A stretch of 64,000 bases of DNA from Ignavibacteriales bacterium (GTDB lineage Bacteria; Bacteroidota; Ignavibacteria; Ignavibacteriales; Ignavibacteriaceae): the NCBI GenBank assembly GCA_015709675.1, contig CP054182.1:2955448-3019447 (forward strand), given 5' to 3'. The notes under the pieces are model-generated. The model saw nothing but the letters and a program-made list of their open reading frames with translations. It was not told where the DNA came from and did not search any database. Both the position numbers and the translations under genes were made by a program. Shown here piece after piece: positions 38,528-46,709 of the stretch (the first letter of the stretch is position 1; each line of letters begins with the position of its first letter).

Positions 38528-39644
38528 TATTTTTATCCGAAAGACCTGGGTAAATCGGAAGTGTAATTACCGTGTGATAAGCATGCTCAGCATGGGGATA
38601 ATCCTTCAGATCCAGTTTAAAGGTATCCCTGTAAAATGGATGACGGTGTACCGGTATAAAATGCATACTGGTACCAATACCCTCTTCCTTTAGTTCCTGG
38701 ATAATCTGATCACGTGATACGCTCAGTGCATCCTGGTTTACTCTTACAGCATACAAATGATACGAAGATTCACGATCAGGAAAATGCTTTGGCAGCGTAA
38801 GCAGTTCATTATTAGTAAATCCTTTGTCGTATATTCCCGTTATCCTTTTCCTGGCTGTCCACATTTCTTCGAGTTTGCGAAGCTGAACAATTCCGAGTGC
38901 AGCGTGAATATCAGTAAAATTATATTTATATCCCGGAGCAATAACTTCAAAGTACCAGGAACCGGCGTTTGCGTATCTGTTCCATACATTACGGTCAATG
39001 CCATGCAGCCGCATGACAGATACTCTTTTTTGAATATCCTCATTATCGGAACAAACCATTCCCCCTTCGCCGGTTGCGAGAGTTTTAGTAGCGTAAAAAC
39101 TGAAACAGGTTATATCACTCAGGGTACCAACTTTTTTCCCTTTGTACCATGAAGGAAGAGCATGAGCAGCATCCTCAATCACAGTTAAATTATATTTCTT
39201 TGCGATCTGATTTATTTCATCCATATCACAAGGAAGACCGCCATAGTGAACCGGAATAATTGCGCGTGTTTTTGAAGTTATCCGCGATTCGATTTGGGAA
39301 ACATCCATATTCATTGAGTCAGGATGTATATCCACCAAAACCGGCTTTGCCTTAAAGTAACAGATTATTTCAGCAGTTGCAGGAAAAGTAAATGTTGGAA
39401 TAATTACTTCATCCCCCTCTTTAAGTCCAATTGCCTCAAGTGCAAGATGACCGGCTGCGGTCCATGAGTTAACCACTGCAGCGTATTTCGAACCGATATA
39501 CTCCCGGAATCGTTCTTCAAATAGTAATGTCTTGGGCCCTACACTCAGCCAGCCTGAACGAATGGTATCAGCCACTTCATGTATTTCTTCATCATCCATA
39601 TAAGGACGGTGAAAATGTATATACTCTTTTTCAGTCATTGACAT
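38475..39644 (-). CDS. DegT/DnrJ/EryC1 family sugar aminotransferase
   Basis: A 389-residue PLP-dependent enzyme that aminates nucleotide-linked keto-sugars. The pyridoxal lysine lies in F-Y-A-T-K-T-L-A-T-G-E-G-G-M; an A-A-H-A-L-P segment (usual D-A-A-H) and the N-terminal P-Y-M-D-D-E-E motif are also typical. With the downstream initiating transferase, it suggests that an amino sugar such as a bacillosamine or perosamine derivative begins the repeat unit, but the matching 4,6-dehydratase is not in this window. Its start overlaps the GT2 gene by 14 bp. Confidence 0.88.
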   Translation of the reverse strand: MSMTEKEYIHFHRPYMDDEEIHEVADTIRSGWLSVGPKTLLFEERFREYIGSKYAAVVNSWTAAGHLALEAIGLKEGDEVIIPTFTFPATAEIICYFKAKPVLVDIHPDSMNMDVSQIESRITSKTRAIIPVHYGGLPCDMDEINQIAKKYNLTVIEDAAHALPSWYKGKKVGTLSDITCFSFYATKTLATGEGGMVCSDNEDIQKRVSVMRLHGIDRNVWNRYANAGSWYFEVIAPGYKYNFTDIHAALGIVQLRKLEEMWTARKRITGIYDKGFTNNELLTLPKHFPDRESSYHLYAVRVNQDALSVSRDQIIQELKEEGIGTSMHFIPVHRHPFYRDTFKLDLKDYPHAEHAYHTVITLPIYPGLSDKNIERVIETVSRILQKHKK

Positions 39645-40596
39645 AATACTTAAACAATCTGCTGAAGCCCTTCAGGAAACCAAGGCCGTATGAAAAATGT
39701 AAAGTAAAAAATATTAAGAGACTTTCAGGAGTTTCCTGCAGATTCCTGAAGGTTTTAAAAGAAAGAATCAGTGTTATGATTACATACAACAACACCGGCA
39801 AAAGGAACAGATACGACCCAGTCAACCAGACAGCCAATGGCGATAAAAGAAAATACAACACCAGAGCCGATGGGAAAAAGTTCCTGATTTTGATACCAAT
39901 TGTTGATTTGCTCAGTGAAAGTGGTTTAAAGTCTCCATATTGAAAATACTGGCTAAAAAGCCCTGACAACGAACTCCGCGGGTAATACCAAAGTTTTATT
40001 GCGGGGTCCCGGTAAATTTTAAATCCGGCGGATTTAGCACGGTAATGAAACTCATCATCCTGATTTCTCAGCAATGACTCGTCAAAATATCCTGTTTTTT
40101 CAAAAATATACTTTCGCCACGCACCATAAGCGACCTGATCTGAATATCCTTTGATTGTAACGTCGAAAGCTTCGCTTCCTCCGGTGCCCCATTTACTTGA
40201 AAGAGCTGATCCTACATTCTGCTGAAATGCGGTTTTATATTTAAGATTATATCCTCCGCCTGCAATATCAGCACCTGTGGTCTCAAAAACCTCCAGAATT
40301 TTCTCATAGTAATCGTCAGCATATTCTGTATGTGCGTCAATCCTGATAATAGGATCCCCCTTGGCTGCTGTTATGGCCATGTTAAGAGCGAACGGAACAT
40401 ACCTTTTAGGATTATGCAAAAGGATAATATTTGAATACTTATCTATATATTCCTGGATGATTTCTGTTGTCCGGTCGGTTGATCCGCCGTCAATAAGAAT
40501 AAGTTCTTTTTCTGCCGGTTTGACAGAAATAAAGTGATCCAGGATATGTTTTATAAAATGTTCTTCGTTAAAAACCGGACAAATAACGCTGATCAA
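39631..40596 (-). CDS. Glycosyltransferase family 2, ExoA-like
   Basis: A 321-residue GT-A enzyme. The N-terminal domain begins I-S-V-I-C-P-V-F-N-E-E and contains I-D-G-G-S-T-D-R-T and the metal-binding R-I-D-A-H-T. The last 90 residues hold about three membrane helices, as in succinoglycan ExoA-type transferases. It adds a sugar to the lipid-linked repeat unit at the inner face of the membrane; donor and linkage are unknown. It overlaps both neighbours (14 and 4 bp), consistent with a single transcript. Confidence 0.88.
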   Translation of the reverse strand: MISVICPVFNEEHFIKHILDHFISVKPAEKELILIDGGSTDRTTEIIQEYIDKYSNIILLHNPKRYVPFALNMAITAAKGDPIIRIDAHTEYADDYYEKILEVFETTGADIAGGGYNLKYKTAFQQNVGSALSSKWGTGGSEAFDVTIKGYSDQVAYGAWRKYIFEKTGYFDESLLRNQDDEFHYRAKSAGFKIYRDPAIKLWYYPRSSLSGLFSQYFQYGDFKPLSLSKSTIGIKIRNFFPSALVLYFLLSPLAVWLTGSYLFLLPVLLYVIITLILSFKTFRNLQETPESLLIFFTLHFSYGLGFLKGFSRLFKYYVND

Positions 40597-41690
40597 ACTC
40601 TCTTACTCAACAATGAACGGTATGTCTCTATTTGCAATGTGACACACCGGTTTAATTTATAATATTGCGCGCGTTCTGCTGCATGTGTTAGTAATGATTG
40701 CTTAAGTGCATCATTATTAATTAAGGAGAGTATTTTTGCTGCCAGATTATCCGGCTCTCCTTGCCGGAAACGTAGACCAGTGACTCCATCAGTTACAAGT
40801 TCATCAAAAGCAGGAATATCACTGCAGATAACAGGTATTCCTAATGCCATGGCTTCAAGTATTGATACACCAAAACTCTCCCTCTCTGAGGTACATACAT
40901 GAATATCCATTCTCCTATGGAAGTCAGCGATGGTGGAATATGGCTGTCTGCCGGTAAATTCAACTTCATCGGAAATTCCTTCCTGAACGGAAAGCTTCTG
41001 TAAATCAGATTTTAATGCTCCATCTCCGACAATAAGAAGTTTTAGATTTTGGCTTACTTCTGACTTTTTCTTTGCTATCGCAAAAGCTTTTATGAGGACA
41101 TCAATACGATAATGGCTCTCCAACGACTTTACTGACCCGATCACAATCTCCGGGACAACACCGGTTACTTTAACCGGATTTCTGGAAAAAAACGAGTTTT
41201 CCAAGCCAAAATTAACAACTTTTACCTTATCGGTAAACTGTTCTGTGATTTTCCTCAAGAATTCTCCGGTTGCCTGTACCTGAGCAGCCCTGTTTAGAAC
41301 TTTTCTCAGCAAAAATCGATGAATGGGCGATTTACCCGGAAAACTCATCACATCAGACCCCCAGACTGAGATAATAAAGTTTTTCACTCCGGACATTGCC
41401 CCTAAGAGACCGTAACTCGTGGCATAGTGTGCATGCAAAATATCCGGACGAAACCGTTGAATGGTCTGCCTAAGATGACCGAGCTGTTTAAGGTAGCCCA
41501 GCTTACCCATCGTCCCCTCCTTGTTTGCATCCACATAAATACCCGGGGAGGAAATACGAGCTAAGAGTTCATCCTCATAATCAGCTTTTTCAGGCTTGTT
41601 CAGACTCCAGAGGTAGAGGTCTATGCCTGCCGCGAAAAGTGCCCTGCTCCACTTTACCAAATGAGGGGCCAACACATCCCCGATAATCAA
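40593..41690 (-). CDS. Glycosyltransferase family 4 (group 1)
   Basis: A 365-residue GT-B enzyme. The C-terminal domain has the family E-x7-E motif, E-S-F-G-V-S-I-L-E, followed by A-M-A-L-G-I-P-V-I, and an upstream G-D-G-A motif. The N-terminal half contains H-A-H-Y-A-T-S-Y-G (D-I-L-H-A-H) typical of retaining transferases. Donor and acceptor are not evident. The ATG overlaps the stop of the polymerase gene by 4 bp. Confidence 0.9.
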   Translation of the reverse strand: MIIGDVLAPHLVKWSRALFAAGIDLYLWSLNKPEKADYEDELLARISSPGIYVDANKEGTMGKLGYLKQLGHLRQTIQRFRPDILHAHYATSYGLLGAMSGVKNFIISVWGSDVMSFPGKSPIHRFLLRKVLNRAAQVQATGEFLRKITEQFTDKVKVVNFGLENSFFSRNPVKVTGVVPEIVIGSVKSLESHYRIDVLIKAFAIAKKKSEVSQNLKLLIVGDGALKSDLQKLSVQEGISDEVEFTGRQPYSTIADFHRRMDIHVCTSERESFGVSILEAMALGIPVICSDIPAFDELVTDGVTGLRFRQGEPDNLAAKILSLINNDALKQSLLTHAAERAQYYKLNRCVTLQIETYRSLLSKRV

Positions 41691-43135: not shown

Positions 43136-44244
43136 CTATTCAGGTCCCGCGGTACATTAAACGAGTCTATAAATTCTGAAAGCCGTAAATAGACTTCATC
43201 AACTGTAAGTTCTGACATGCATGAATGATGAAAACAGCTTCTGCCTCCCAATTCATGACAAAACTTTTCTGTGACGGGAGAACATGCTATCCTTTTTACA
43301 GCGAATCCATGCCCGCTGCCATAAGGCATATGAAAATCAGGATTGGTCGGTCCATAAACCGCAAAAGTAGATTTCCCCAGGAAATTTGCTATATAGAGTG
43401 GACCCGTATCGTTTGACAGGAATAAGTCATATTTTTCTATGCATTGAATAAGCTGAGCAATATCTGCCGTTTCCGTAAATGAAAGCGACTCTTCAAAAAG
43501 TGCCTTTTTGAATTCTTCGGTCAGATAATCAGCCTGAAATACAAAATGTATTTCAAATCTCTTTTTCAGTAACTTCGCTGTTTGGATAAATCTGTTTATT
43601 CCCCACTCTTTTGCCTTCCATCCCCCGCCTGGCGCAATCAAAACAGAATTTATTGAAGAAATTCTTAACGGAAACTGCTTTAGTGAATCCGGTGGGAAAT
43701 CACCAAAATAACCTCTGACAATATCCAGATAAATATCCATGATATGCGGAGTCTGTCTGATGGGAATATAATTATCATAAACTTTACTGTATAGCGGAAG
43801 ATTTATACCAATTTTCTTTTTCGCAGGTGAGAGAATAGTAATTCCAGCAGAATAAAGTCCTCCGGAAAAGTCAAAGAAATACTCTGCCGGAAGAGAAAAA
43901 TATTTCCGCCAAAGTGAAAGTTTTAGCACTTTGCCGTGATAGAAAAAATCATTGCGACTGATAATTATAAAATTCACTCCCGGAAAAAGCCTGCTATAAA
44001 TTTCCCTGTTTTCCTCAAATGTTATAATTGTTACAATCGTACTTCCTGTGTGTTCCAACACCAATCTAAGTGCTGGAATAGTAAAAATCGAGTCACCCAG
44101 TTTATGAGATGACATTATAACAGTTCCGTAACGTTTTCCGGGTAAAATTTTCCTAAGCCAGCGCAGCATAGATAACGCAAAATCAGCAACATACTGAAAA
44201 TAGGTAATAGAATGAACCGGATTATACTTTTTAGTTCGCAGCAT
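43132..44244 (-). CDS. Glycosyltransferase family 9 (heptosyltransferase-like)
   Basis: A 370-residue GT-B enzyme of the ADP-heptose transferase family. The N-terminal half shows S-H-K-L-G-D-S-I-F-T-I-P-A-L-R; the donor-binding region has L-S-N-D-T-G-P-L-Y-I-A-N and G-P-T-N-P. Near the C-terminus a Cys/His group (C-x6-C, then C-F-H-H-S-C) is present, similar to the C-x-x-x-C-terminal cysteines of some GT9 enzymes that bind or stabilise the fold. Whether it transfers heptose or another sugar is unknown. It lies within the polysaccharide operon, overlapping the flippase by 14 bp. Confidence 0.88.
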   Translation of the reverse strand: MLRTKKYNPVHSITYFQYVADFALSMLRWLRKILPGKRYGTVIMSSHKLGDSIFTIPALRLVLEHTGSTIVTIITFEENREIYSRLFPGVNFIIISRNDFFYHGKVLKLSLWRKYFSLPAEYFFDFSGGLYSAGITILSPAKKKIGINLPLYSKVYDNYIPIRQTPHIMDIYLDIVRGYFGDFPPDSLKQFPLRISSINSVLIAPGGGWKAKEWGINRFIQTAKLLKKRFEIHFVFQADYLTEEFKKALFEESLSFTETADIAQLIQCIEKYDLFLSNDTGPLYIANFLGKSTFAVYGPTNPDFHMPYGSGHGFAVKRIACSPVTEKFCHELGGRSCFHHSCMSELTVDEVYLRLSEFIDSFNVPRDLNR

Positions 44245-45750
44245 TGACCAGGTCTTTATTAAAAACCAGTTTTACTATTCGTAACTTGAACAATCTGGCG
44301 AACAAGAAATAAACCAACAACAAGAGAATAAGGAATCCCAGTTTAAGATAAAGGGAGGAAAGAGGTAACCATTGTGCAAGCAGCATACCTAATCCACCTG
44401 TTATACTAAGAGATGCAACAATTTTTATAATATTCACGAGTTGAAAATTACTGATTCCGCCTATCCGTTTATAAATCAGAATCAGACTGGCCCCAAACAA
44501 GAAAACATAACTGACCGACGTTGATATTGCCAAGGTTAGGTAATTATATTCATGAATAAAGAAATAATTCACAGCAAGCTTAATCAGGAGTGCTGAGATA
44601 TTTATTAGCAGTAATGCAAATGCCCCGTTAATACCATATAAAAATTTACTAAATACAGCATAAACTGAGTAAAAAATAAGCGAAAGGATGAGAATAAAAA
44701 AACTGCTGCTTACCATCTCAAGATCATCAGTAGAAAATGATGAATTAATGTAGACAGTGTTCACAATTTCATAAGGAAATATTAAAAATAGTAAAACTAA
44801 CGGAAGGATGAGAAAAGTTATTAATTCTATTGACTGCCCTAACTTATTCCGAAGGGCATCAAAATCCTGTTTGGCAAAATAATCTGCCACCCTTGGAAAA
44901 AGAGCTGTTGAGAAAGCCATTGCAATCATAGAGACGGGCAGCAGCATAAGATTATTTGCATAATTTAATGCTGATATACTTCCCTCTTTAATCTGTGTGA
45001 AAAATGCTCTGTCAACTAATGGGTTAAACTGTCCGACAATCTCAATCAAAACCACTACAATAAAAGCCGGAATCAGTCTGACTCTGGCAAAGCTCATTTT
45101 CGCGATAATACTCTTCTCTCTAAGATCCTTCCGTGTAATAAAAATCAAATGAAGAAACTGAAGTACTATTCCAGAAAGATAACCATAGGCTATGGTATAA
45201 ACTCCAAAGGATCCAGAAGCGAATAGCACAAAAAGAATAATAAGCAGATTAGGCCAGATTTGAGAAATAAGTGAATGCAAATATCTGTTATTAAAATACT
45301 CCCAGGAAATAATTATGGATAACACAAAAGAAAGCGGGAGCGTCAGAGTATAAATTAAGAAGAGCTTCTCAGCAAGATCAAATTTCTTAGTTGATATCTC
45401 CCCGAGAAATGCATCCAGTACTAATTCAGAAAAAAGTATGAGAATCGCGGCAGTAATTATGGAAAGTAATCCACTCTTAATGAGAGCGGTCTTATAATAG
45501 CTTTTAGCTTCAGCAGGATTCCCTGCATTCACCCTGCTGAATGATGGTATATAATAATTCTGGGCAATATAATAAAAAGAGGTGGATATCATCACTGGAA
45601 ACAGGGTACTGACGAAGTAGATATCAAGATCCTGATTTACGCCAAAAGAGGAGGCAAATACCAGTTCTCGCAGGAATCCAATTCCCTTTCCCCCTGCATT
45701 AAAAATTGTTATGAGTACTGATGCCCCGGCTAATGTCTTTAAAAATCCAT
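44231..45750 (-). CDS. MurJ/MviN-type lipid flippase (Wzx-like), frame break at its start
   Basis: A membrane flippase of about 505 residues with some fourteen helices, probably moving the lipid-linked repeat unit across the inner membrane. The uninterrupted ORF with a standard start (GTG 45595) lacks the first helix. Upstream in the same frame about 48 further codons are plainly coding: F-L-R-E-L-V-F-A-S-S-F-G, D-L-D-I-Y-F and L-F-P are classic MurJ N-terminal motifs, but no ATG, GTG or TTG starts that stretch. The ATG at 45750-45748, right after the UDP-xylose synthase gene, is one base out of frame. One extra T in the T5 run (45745-45741) would give M-D-F-L-K-T-L-A-G-A and a full-length protein. 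Confidence 0.78.
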
Positions 45751-45764
45751 TACCCTTGAACAGA

Positions 45765-46709
45765 TCAAACGCCTAACTTATTCTTGAAATAGTCAATTGT
45801 TATTTTTAATCCTTTATCCCTCTCAACTTTTGGTTCCCAACCAAGCAAGGACTTTGCCCGGGAAATATCCGGCTGCCTCACTTTGGGGTCATCAGCAGGC
45901 AAATCCTTATAAATAATCTTTGATTTTGTTCCTGTTATAGAAATAACTTCCTCGGCAAACTGCTTGATTGTTATTTCAGCAGGATTTCCAATATTAACCG
46001 GTTCCGATTCACCAGACATCAGTAGAGCATAAATTCCTTCAATCAGATCACTCACATAACAAAAACTTCTGGTCTGTGATCCATCTCCGAATACGGTTAT
46101 GTCCTCACCGCTTAACGCCTGGGAAACAAATGCAGGAAGAGCCCGTCCGTCATTGAGTCTCATCCGGGGACCGTAGGTGTTAAATATCCTTACAATTCTG
46201 GTTTCTACTCCATGGAATCTATGGTATGCCATGGTCATGGCCTCTGCAAATCTTTTTGCTTCATCATATACTCCCCTTGGGCCCACCGGATTAACGTTTC
46301 CCCAGTAGGACTCCGGCTGAGGATGGATTTCCGGGTCTCCGTAAACCTCAGAAGTTGATGCAAGTAAAAAGCGCGCTTTTTTCTCCTTGGCAAGACCGAG
46401 TACTTTATGAGTACCTAATGATCCCACTTTAAGTGTCTGAATGGGAAGTTTCAGGTAATCAATCGGTGAAGCCGGAGAAGCAAAATGAAGGATATAATCA
46501 ACGTTTCCCCTCACATGAATGAATTCCGTAACATCATGTTTAACAAACTTAAAAGATTCATTTCCAAAGAGATGTTCAATATTATGAATATCACCGGTCA
46601 GCAGGTTATCCATACAGATGACACTATGACCCTTGCTGATAATCAAATCACAAAGATGAGAACCGAGAAACCCCGCTCCGCCTGTTACCAGAAAAACTTT
46701 CTTATCCAT
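45765..46709 (-). CDS. UDP-glucuronate decarboxylase (UDP-xylose synthase)
   Basis: A 314-residue short-chain dehydrogenase-type enzyme that converts UDP-glucuronate to UDP-xylose with bound NAD. The Rossmann motif is G-G-A-G-F-L-G-S-H at about 10-18; the catalytic region shows S-T-S-E-V-Y-G-D and Y-D-E-A-K (Y-x3-K), and [10 protein letters not shown] and F-C-Y-V-S-D are typical of UXS. Length is normal for the bacterial soluble form. It suggests that xylose, or a derivative, is part of the polysaccharide. No UDP-glucose dehydrogenase gene is in the window. It shares 8 bp with the co-polymerase gene. Confidence 0.88.

Follow-up and report, generated by a model that had tools for sequence, protein, structure and literature searches.

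The window analysed here, a stretch of 64,000 nucleotides, carries on its minus strand a polysaccharide cluster with a flippase gene that lacks a canonical start codon ahead of its conserved N-terminus. Read along the minus strand, the first part of the cluster encodes a chain-length/tyrosine-kinase protein, an SLBB/export protein, a second chain-length-like protein (with a Pfam GNVR match below cut-off) and an SDR epimerase, followed by the flippase, a glycosyltransferase of family 9, a Wzy-type protein and a glycosyltransferase of group 1. The following features lie at and around the junction between epimerase and flippase:

45765 to 46709, minus strand: NAD-dependent epimerase/dehydratase (SDR) gene, upstream of the flippase (Pfam PF01370, 166.3 bits; PF16363, 176.8 bits)
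44231 to 45763, minus strand: MurJ-like flippase gene of the MVF/MATE superfamily, shown with its proposed CTG start (Pfam MurJ, NCBIfam TIGR01695)
45720 to 45769, minus strand: 50 nt around the presumed site of translation initiation, without a difference between the two congeneric species compared here; the longest exact match outside a putatively recombined block
45766 to 45768, minus strand: TTG that shares bases with the epimerase stop (TTGA), in the same frame as ATG 45750 and a further candidate start for a -1 slip
45761 to 45763, minus strand: proposed CTG start codon, identical in the congeneric genome G001 and near the family start column
45739 to 45750, minus strand: mini-frame ATG GAT TTT TAA, alternative start for a -1 slip, with AAGGG just upstream
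45741 to 45745, minus strand: T5 run, of equal length in G001
45593 to 45595, minus strand: GTG, first canonical start codon of the flippase frame, with 59 open codons preceding it

The flippase frame extends on the minus strand from behind a TAG at 45775-45773 to a stop ending at 44231 and comprises 513 codons. Codon numbering starts with 0 directly behind this TAG, which makes the CTG codon 3 and the GTG at 45595 codon 59. Over the full frame, the translation matched Pfam MurJ with 165.3 bits (profile positions 1-437 of 451) and aligned to six solved MurJ sequences, with alignments beginning at query residues 10-20. The score against NCBIfam TIGR01695 was 179.8 bits, which is below the equivalog cut-off of 235.55, so that the protein is not classified as a MurJ (lipid II flippase) equivalog. 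Its 165 bits make it the one strong MurJ-family match in the genome, where the remaining matches reach 41 and 26-31 bits. Of the 31 genomes searched (own genome included), four had no match at E up to 0.001.

The sequence-only reading had described a stretch of about 48 codons that encodes a MurJ-family N-terminus and is devoid of ATG, GTG and TTG. This stretch is real and the GTG at 45595-45593 is indeed its first canonical start codon, but the count was too low, since all of the 59 codons are open, or 56 if counted from CTG 45763. Among the 53 ORFs of 150 aa or more found in the window, none stays open for longer ahead of its first canonical start; the second longest such lead (41 codons) is in a frame that runs antisense to an ORF of 467 aa, and the third longest (33 codons) in what is, by eye, a gene with an ordinary ATG. 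Judged from the MurJ alignments, a start at GTG 45595 would cost the protein its first transmembrane segment (TM1) and the conserved segment GKGIGFLRE. The positions given earlier for an ATG at 45750, the AAGGG before it and the T5 run were all correct, as was the one-base offset: the ATG at 45750-45748 is one base out of the flippase frame at the T5 run, and its own stop is the TAA at 45741-45739.

Homologues were searched in 59 genomes (this one included), of which 34 gave matches, and 30 loci (own locus included) were aligned. The only genome of the same genus was G001, a separate assembly with the flippase on its contig 41. The two flippases are 62% identical in an alignment that begins at residue 1, and the start region in G001 reads TAG GCA TTT GAT CTG TTC AAG GGT AAT GGA TTT TTA AAG, with the first ATG, GTG or TTG not before codon 37. 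Between the two species codons 17-44 show no nonsynonymous change at 61.0 sites and 15 synonymous changes at 23.0 sites, whereas codons 45-58 show seven nonsynonymous changes; the strongest conservation thus ends ahead of GTG 45595. Because MurJ-family N-termini align to the stretch before the GTG and codons 17-44 change only silently, we regard this stretch as coding, and a conserved coding region that opens without ATG, GTG or TTG would place the flippase among the genes with non-canonical starts. Further congeners did not appear: a DNA search of 80 family genomes (this one included) had G000 and G001 as its only matches, and a degenerate scan across genome contigs yielded a single contig, JADLAF010000041.1, which we take to be contig 41 of G001. 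A protein scan of genome contigs confirmed no relative, a negative that carries little weight because the known contig JADLAF010000041.1 was missed as well. The one match from a scan of viral contigs looked unrelated by eye.

The nucleotides around the CTG are unusually well conserved between the two species. When the 64-kb window was compared with 60 kb of G001, the 50-nt region at the flippase start stood out as described above, and codons 3-16 showed no change at 10.3 synonymous sites, although silent sites are near saturation outside this region (pS = 0.80 from flippase codon 59 to the end). Leaving aside a block at about 39046-41681, 18 gene pairs (flippase included) were compared; the longest run of identical codons was 16 at the flippase start and 11 elsewhere. 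These pairs contain 1383 overlapping 14-codon windows in which every amino acid is conserved. Codon differences are absent from only three of them, which begin at codons 1, 2 and 3 of the flippase frame. In several gene pairs of the genus, silent sites just after the start are better conserved than those in gene bodies: in the other 17 pairs, 110 of 175 same-residue codons were identical over the 14 codons after the start, compared with fractions of 0.38-0.55 in gene bodies (start codons were assigned automatically as the first shared ATG, GTG or TTG and some may be wrong). Since neighbouring genes, too, show such enrichment near their starts, the frozen region is not unique in kind, and the flippase is the extreme case of a general tendency. 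The excluded block at about 39046-41681 holds two glycosyltransferase genes with identical-codon fractions of 0.77-0.81 to G001 and exact runs of up to 107 nt, while the 18 other gene pairs had fractions of 0.38-0.54, which suggests that the two lineages have recently exchanged polysaccharide genes. This adjoining exchange lends some plausibility to the idea that the 50-nt identity is itself a short gene-conversion tract free of constraint, in which case the CTG would be used and its context would be nothing special. We consider this improbable, as the tract is just 50 nt long with ordinary divergence on either side, coincides with the expected start, and has counterparts in the enriched start regions of the 17 other pairs.

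The CTG lies where the family begins its proteins. In all 28 homologues from outside the genus a canonical start is found at -2 to +2 aligned codons from the CTG column; the commonest position is +2 (21 of 28), not 0. The N-terminus read in the CTG frame, MFK..., resembles the MFKHKF of one of the aligned homologues (L011). The CTG is accordingly a near-cognate codon that has been kept where a start is expected, with only one relative carrying it. On the epimerase side, the UGA at 45767-45765 is separated from the CTG by 1 nt in both congeners, a spacing that, if CTG is the start, is that of a translationally coupled pair. In 20 of 30 loci, the own one and that of G001 among them, an SDR-like tail, recognised by eye through a T(I/V/L)(D/E)(F/Y)F motif, ends -8 to +13 nt from where the flippase begins. 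Close packing of SDR and flippase genes is therefore common, and a CTG one base after the UGA fits this arrangement.

IF3 is present in the genome, and its gene, infC, is without ATG, GTG or TTG ahead of the conserved N-terminus in both species. Its apparent start is ATC (L050:1489-1491, with the corresponding codon of L051), located 7 nt after a GAGG motif and preceded by AGAGG in the own genome and CGAGG in G001, so that the own genome apparently uses ATC for infC. In other bacteria, infC starts with ATT (E. coli) or with ATC (Streptomyces; PMC5472188). One intact initiator-type tRNA-Met gene was found, whose anticodon stem keeps the three G-C pairs (GGGCTCATAACCC) and thus does not suggest relaxed start selection; a relaxed initiator tRNA was dropped as an explanation. 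Several broken tRNA-Met repeats adjoin this gene (L041:1440-1800, in the own genome near 3620242-3620476) and include, by eye, a second GGGCTCATAACCC stem, where ARAGORN calls no tRNA.

Taken together, we consider it probable (at roughly 0.63) that translation of an intact flippase gene begins at the CTG at 45763-45761, and we give the same weight to ribosomes restarting at this codon as the most likely mechanism. The initiator tRNA would read CTG as methionine, yielding a protein that begins with MFKGNGFLKTLAGAS... Ribosomes that finish the epimerase at UGA 45767-45765 already sit over the CTG and may restart there, and such a restart would make a weak near-cognate codon usable. Coupling of this kind would tie a low level of flippase to the output of the epimerase. 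The coding upstream region, the lack of canonical starts, the 1-nt gap and the T5, CTG and 50 nt shared by two species are observations, from which CTG use, restart by coupling, low yield and discrimination by IF3 are inferred. Of the three options the sequence-only reading had offered, the rare CTG start is the best supported, by the conserved codon, its surrounding nucleotides and the expected start column. The comparison with relatives it had proposed did return a uniform T5 and a conserved CTG. Only a single relative shows this, however, and it is equally what a programmed -1 frameshift would lead one to expect: with two species and no variation in the region, both models lead to one pattern.

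Some observations count against CTG. In cryo-EM and toeprint work (PMC11497404), initiation complexes with CUG are reported to have lower stability than those with AUG, GUG or UUG. There is no obvious Shine-Dalgarno (SD) sequence upstream of the CTG. We do not regard this as strong counter-evidence because a table of an anti-SD analysis gives 32 for Ignavibacteria, in a column whose meaning is not established (PMC10783764), and because an SD sequence is present in 10% of overlapping pairs in Bacteroidetes (PMC6728339). The predicted unpaired probability from -15 to +15 around the CTG is 0.25 in the own genome and 0.39 in G001, compared with 0.51 +/- 0.10 at 18 ATG starts of the family. For the CTG itself it varies with the folding window from 0.72 to 0.12 (own sequence), and a 26-nt hairpin over the codon is weak (z -1.06 and -0.77), for which reasons no structure is claimed there. 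A search of 45300-46100 against Rfam returned nothing with an E value of 1 or below. The sequence CAAGGGTAAYGGA occurs in three copies in the genome and its reversed control in none; the other two copies lie, by eye, at a gene end before the next coding region and inside a coding frame, and we took the recurrence to be due to chance.

The alternative that deserves most attention is a programmed -1 frameshift. Translation would start at ATG 45750 or TTG 45768 and meet UAA after GAU UUU, where the Phe-tRNA in the P-site would move back by one base on the U5 into the flippase frame, giving a product MDFLKT... for the ATG start. The ATG, TTG, AAGGG, T5 and TAA all fall within the 50 identical nt, as would be expected of a slip site with its start, and the identity extends about 20 nt beyond the slip site. 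However, the junction sequence T TTT TAA, conserved in both species, permits only a single-tRNA slip facing a stop codon and is a weak slip site, and even U_UUU_UUA is far less shift-prone than A_AAA_AAG in E. coli, as stated in a review (PMC5009743). Neither was a stimulatory structure found 3' of the slip site: in the two sequences the 151-nt region has no significant fold (z -1.05, with 28 of 200 shuffles at least as stable) and no two-sided covariation, with one-sided change at one pair under pseudoknot-free folding. The AAGGG is just 2 nt from the ATG, a poor spacing, and the methionine from this ATG would fall at +4 after the slip, outside the family range of -2 to +2, whereas that from TTG 45768 falls within it at -2 (columns counted by hand). 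We therefore hold a -1 frameshift to be unlikely, if well ahead of a negligible chance, and slightly less likely still its coupled form, in which ribosomes would restart at the TTG or ATG over the epimerase stop, read 3-9 codons and make flippase only when they slip on the U5 at the UAA. If true, such a start-proximal -1 slip would be a very short recoding cassette gating polysaccharide export.

The remaining explanations are less probable. Another near-cognate codon, e.g. ATA or ATT at codons 20-22, or an as yet unknown element might start the flippase, and the apparent use of ATC for infC in the same genome gives this idea a precedent; on the other hand codons 20-22 are within the first membrane segment and well past the column in which the family starts, and the codons ahead of them (3-16) are frozen rather than decaying, which makes such a start improbable. 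A sequencing or assembly error, a decayed gene and a phase-variable OFF state have in common that one extra base would restore the ATG frame. With the same T5 and CTG in the separately assembled G001, and no canonical start there before codon 37, a homopolymer error, as the sequence-only reading had considered, is contradicted and very unlikely. Its second proposal, a phase-variable slippery tract, found no support either: the run has just five bases and no length difference between the two species, unlike a phase-variable contingency locus, and the flippase frame is under purifying selection. Taken together, these three are slightly less probable than another near-cognate start. An RF2-like +1 frameshift at GTT TGA, fusing epimerase and flippase, would make use of the flippase frame being +1 to the epimerase, with no stop between GCG TTT GAT and CTG. 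The P-site codon varies between GTT and ATT, as do nearby upstream bases, and for lack of this upstream conservation the fusion is disfavoured; open frames of 507-561 codons in 30 homologue loci are furthermore too short for an in-frame fusion, and we rate it the least credible of all.

The preferred CTG start resembles several known systems in part. Like the flippase, infC (IF3, ATT/ATC start) is an intact, conserved gene without a canonical start, but infC has GAGG 7 nt before its apparent ATC start, whereas at the flippase a stop codon lies one base ahead of the CTG and a clear SD is missing. In Streptomyces sigR (PMC5472188), a non-canonical start, as proposed for the flippase, occurs in a translationally coupled pair, with low output suspected; that start is GTC and repressed by IF3, and codon, gene and phylum differ from those of the flippase. 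Termination-reinitiation pairs share with epimerase and flippase a stop and start one base apart; their type examples in PMC6728339 are ATGA and TGATG, while the restart codon here would be CTG. The -1 frameshifting of dnaX and IS elements, as reviewed in PMC5009743, is similar in that an SD-like AAGGG and a homopolymeric run lie near the frame change, and differs in that the flippase slip site is short, faces a stop codon and has no stimulatory structure that we could find. A laboratory parallel comes from E. coli, where a frame-shifted lambda cI gene was rescued by initiation at non-natural codons, as reported in PMC6397469.

Among the open-licence papers listed for CUG/CTG starts, coupling or Ignavibacteria we found no report of this gene. 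The flippase would be a new example of a known phenomenon, that of non-canonical start codons. A gene caller limited to ATG, GTG and TTG would shorten it to GTG 45595 and lose TM1. With a CTG start kept in two species, a frozen context and a tight gene pair, the locus would offer a clean test case for restart at a near-cognate codon.
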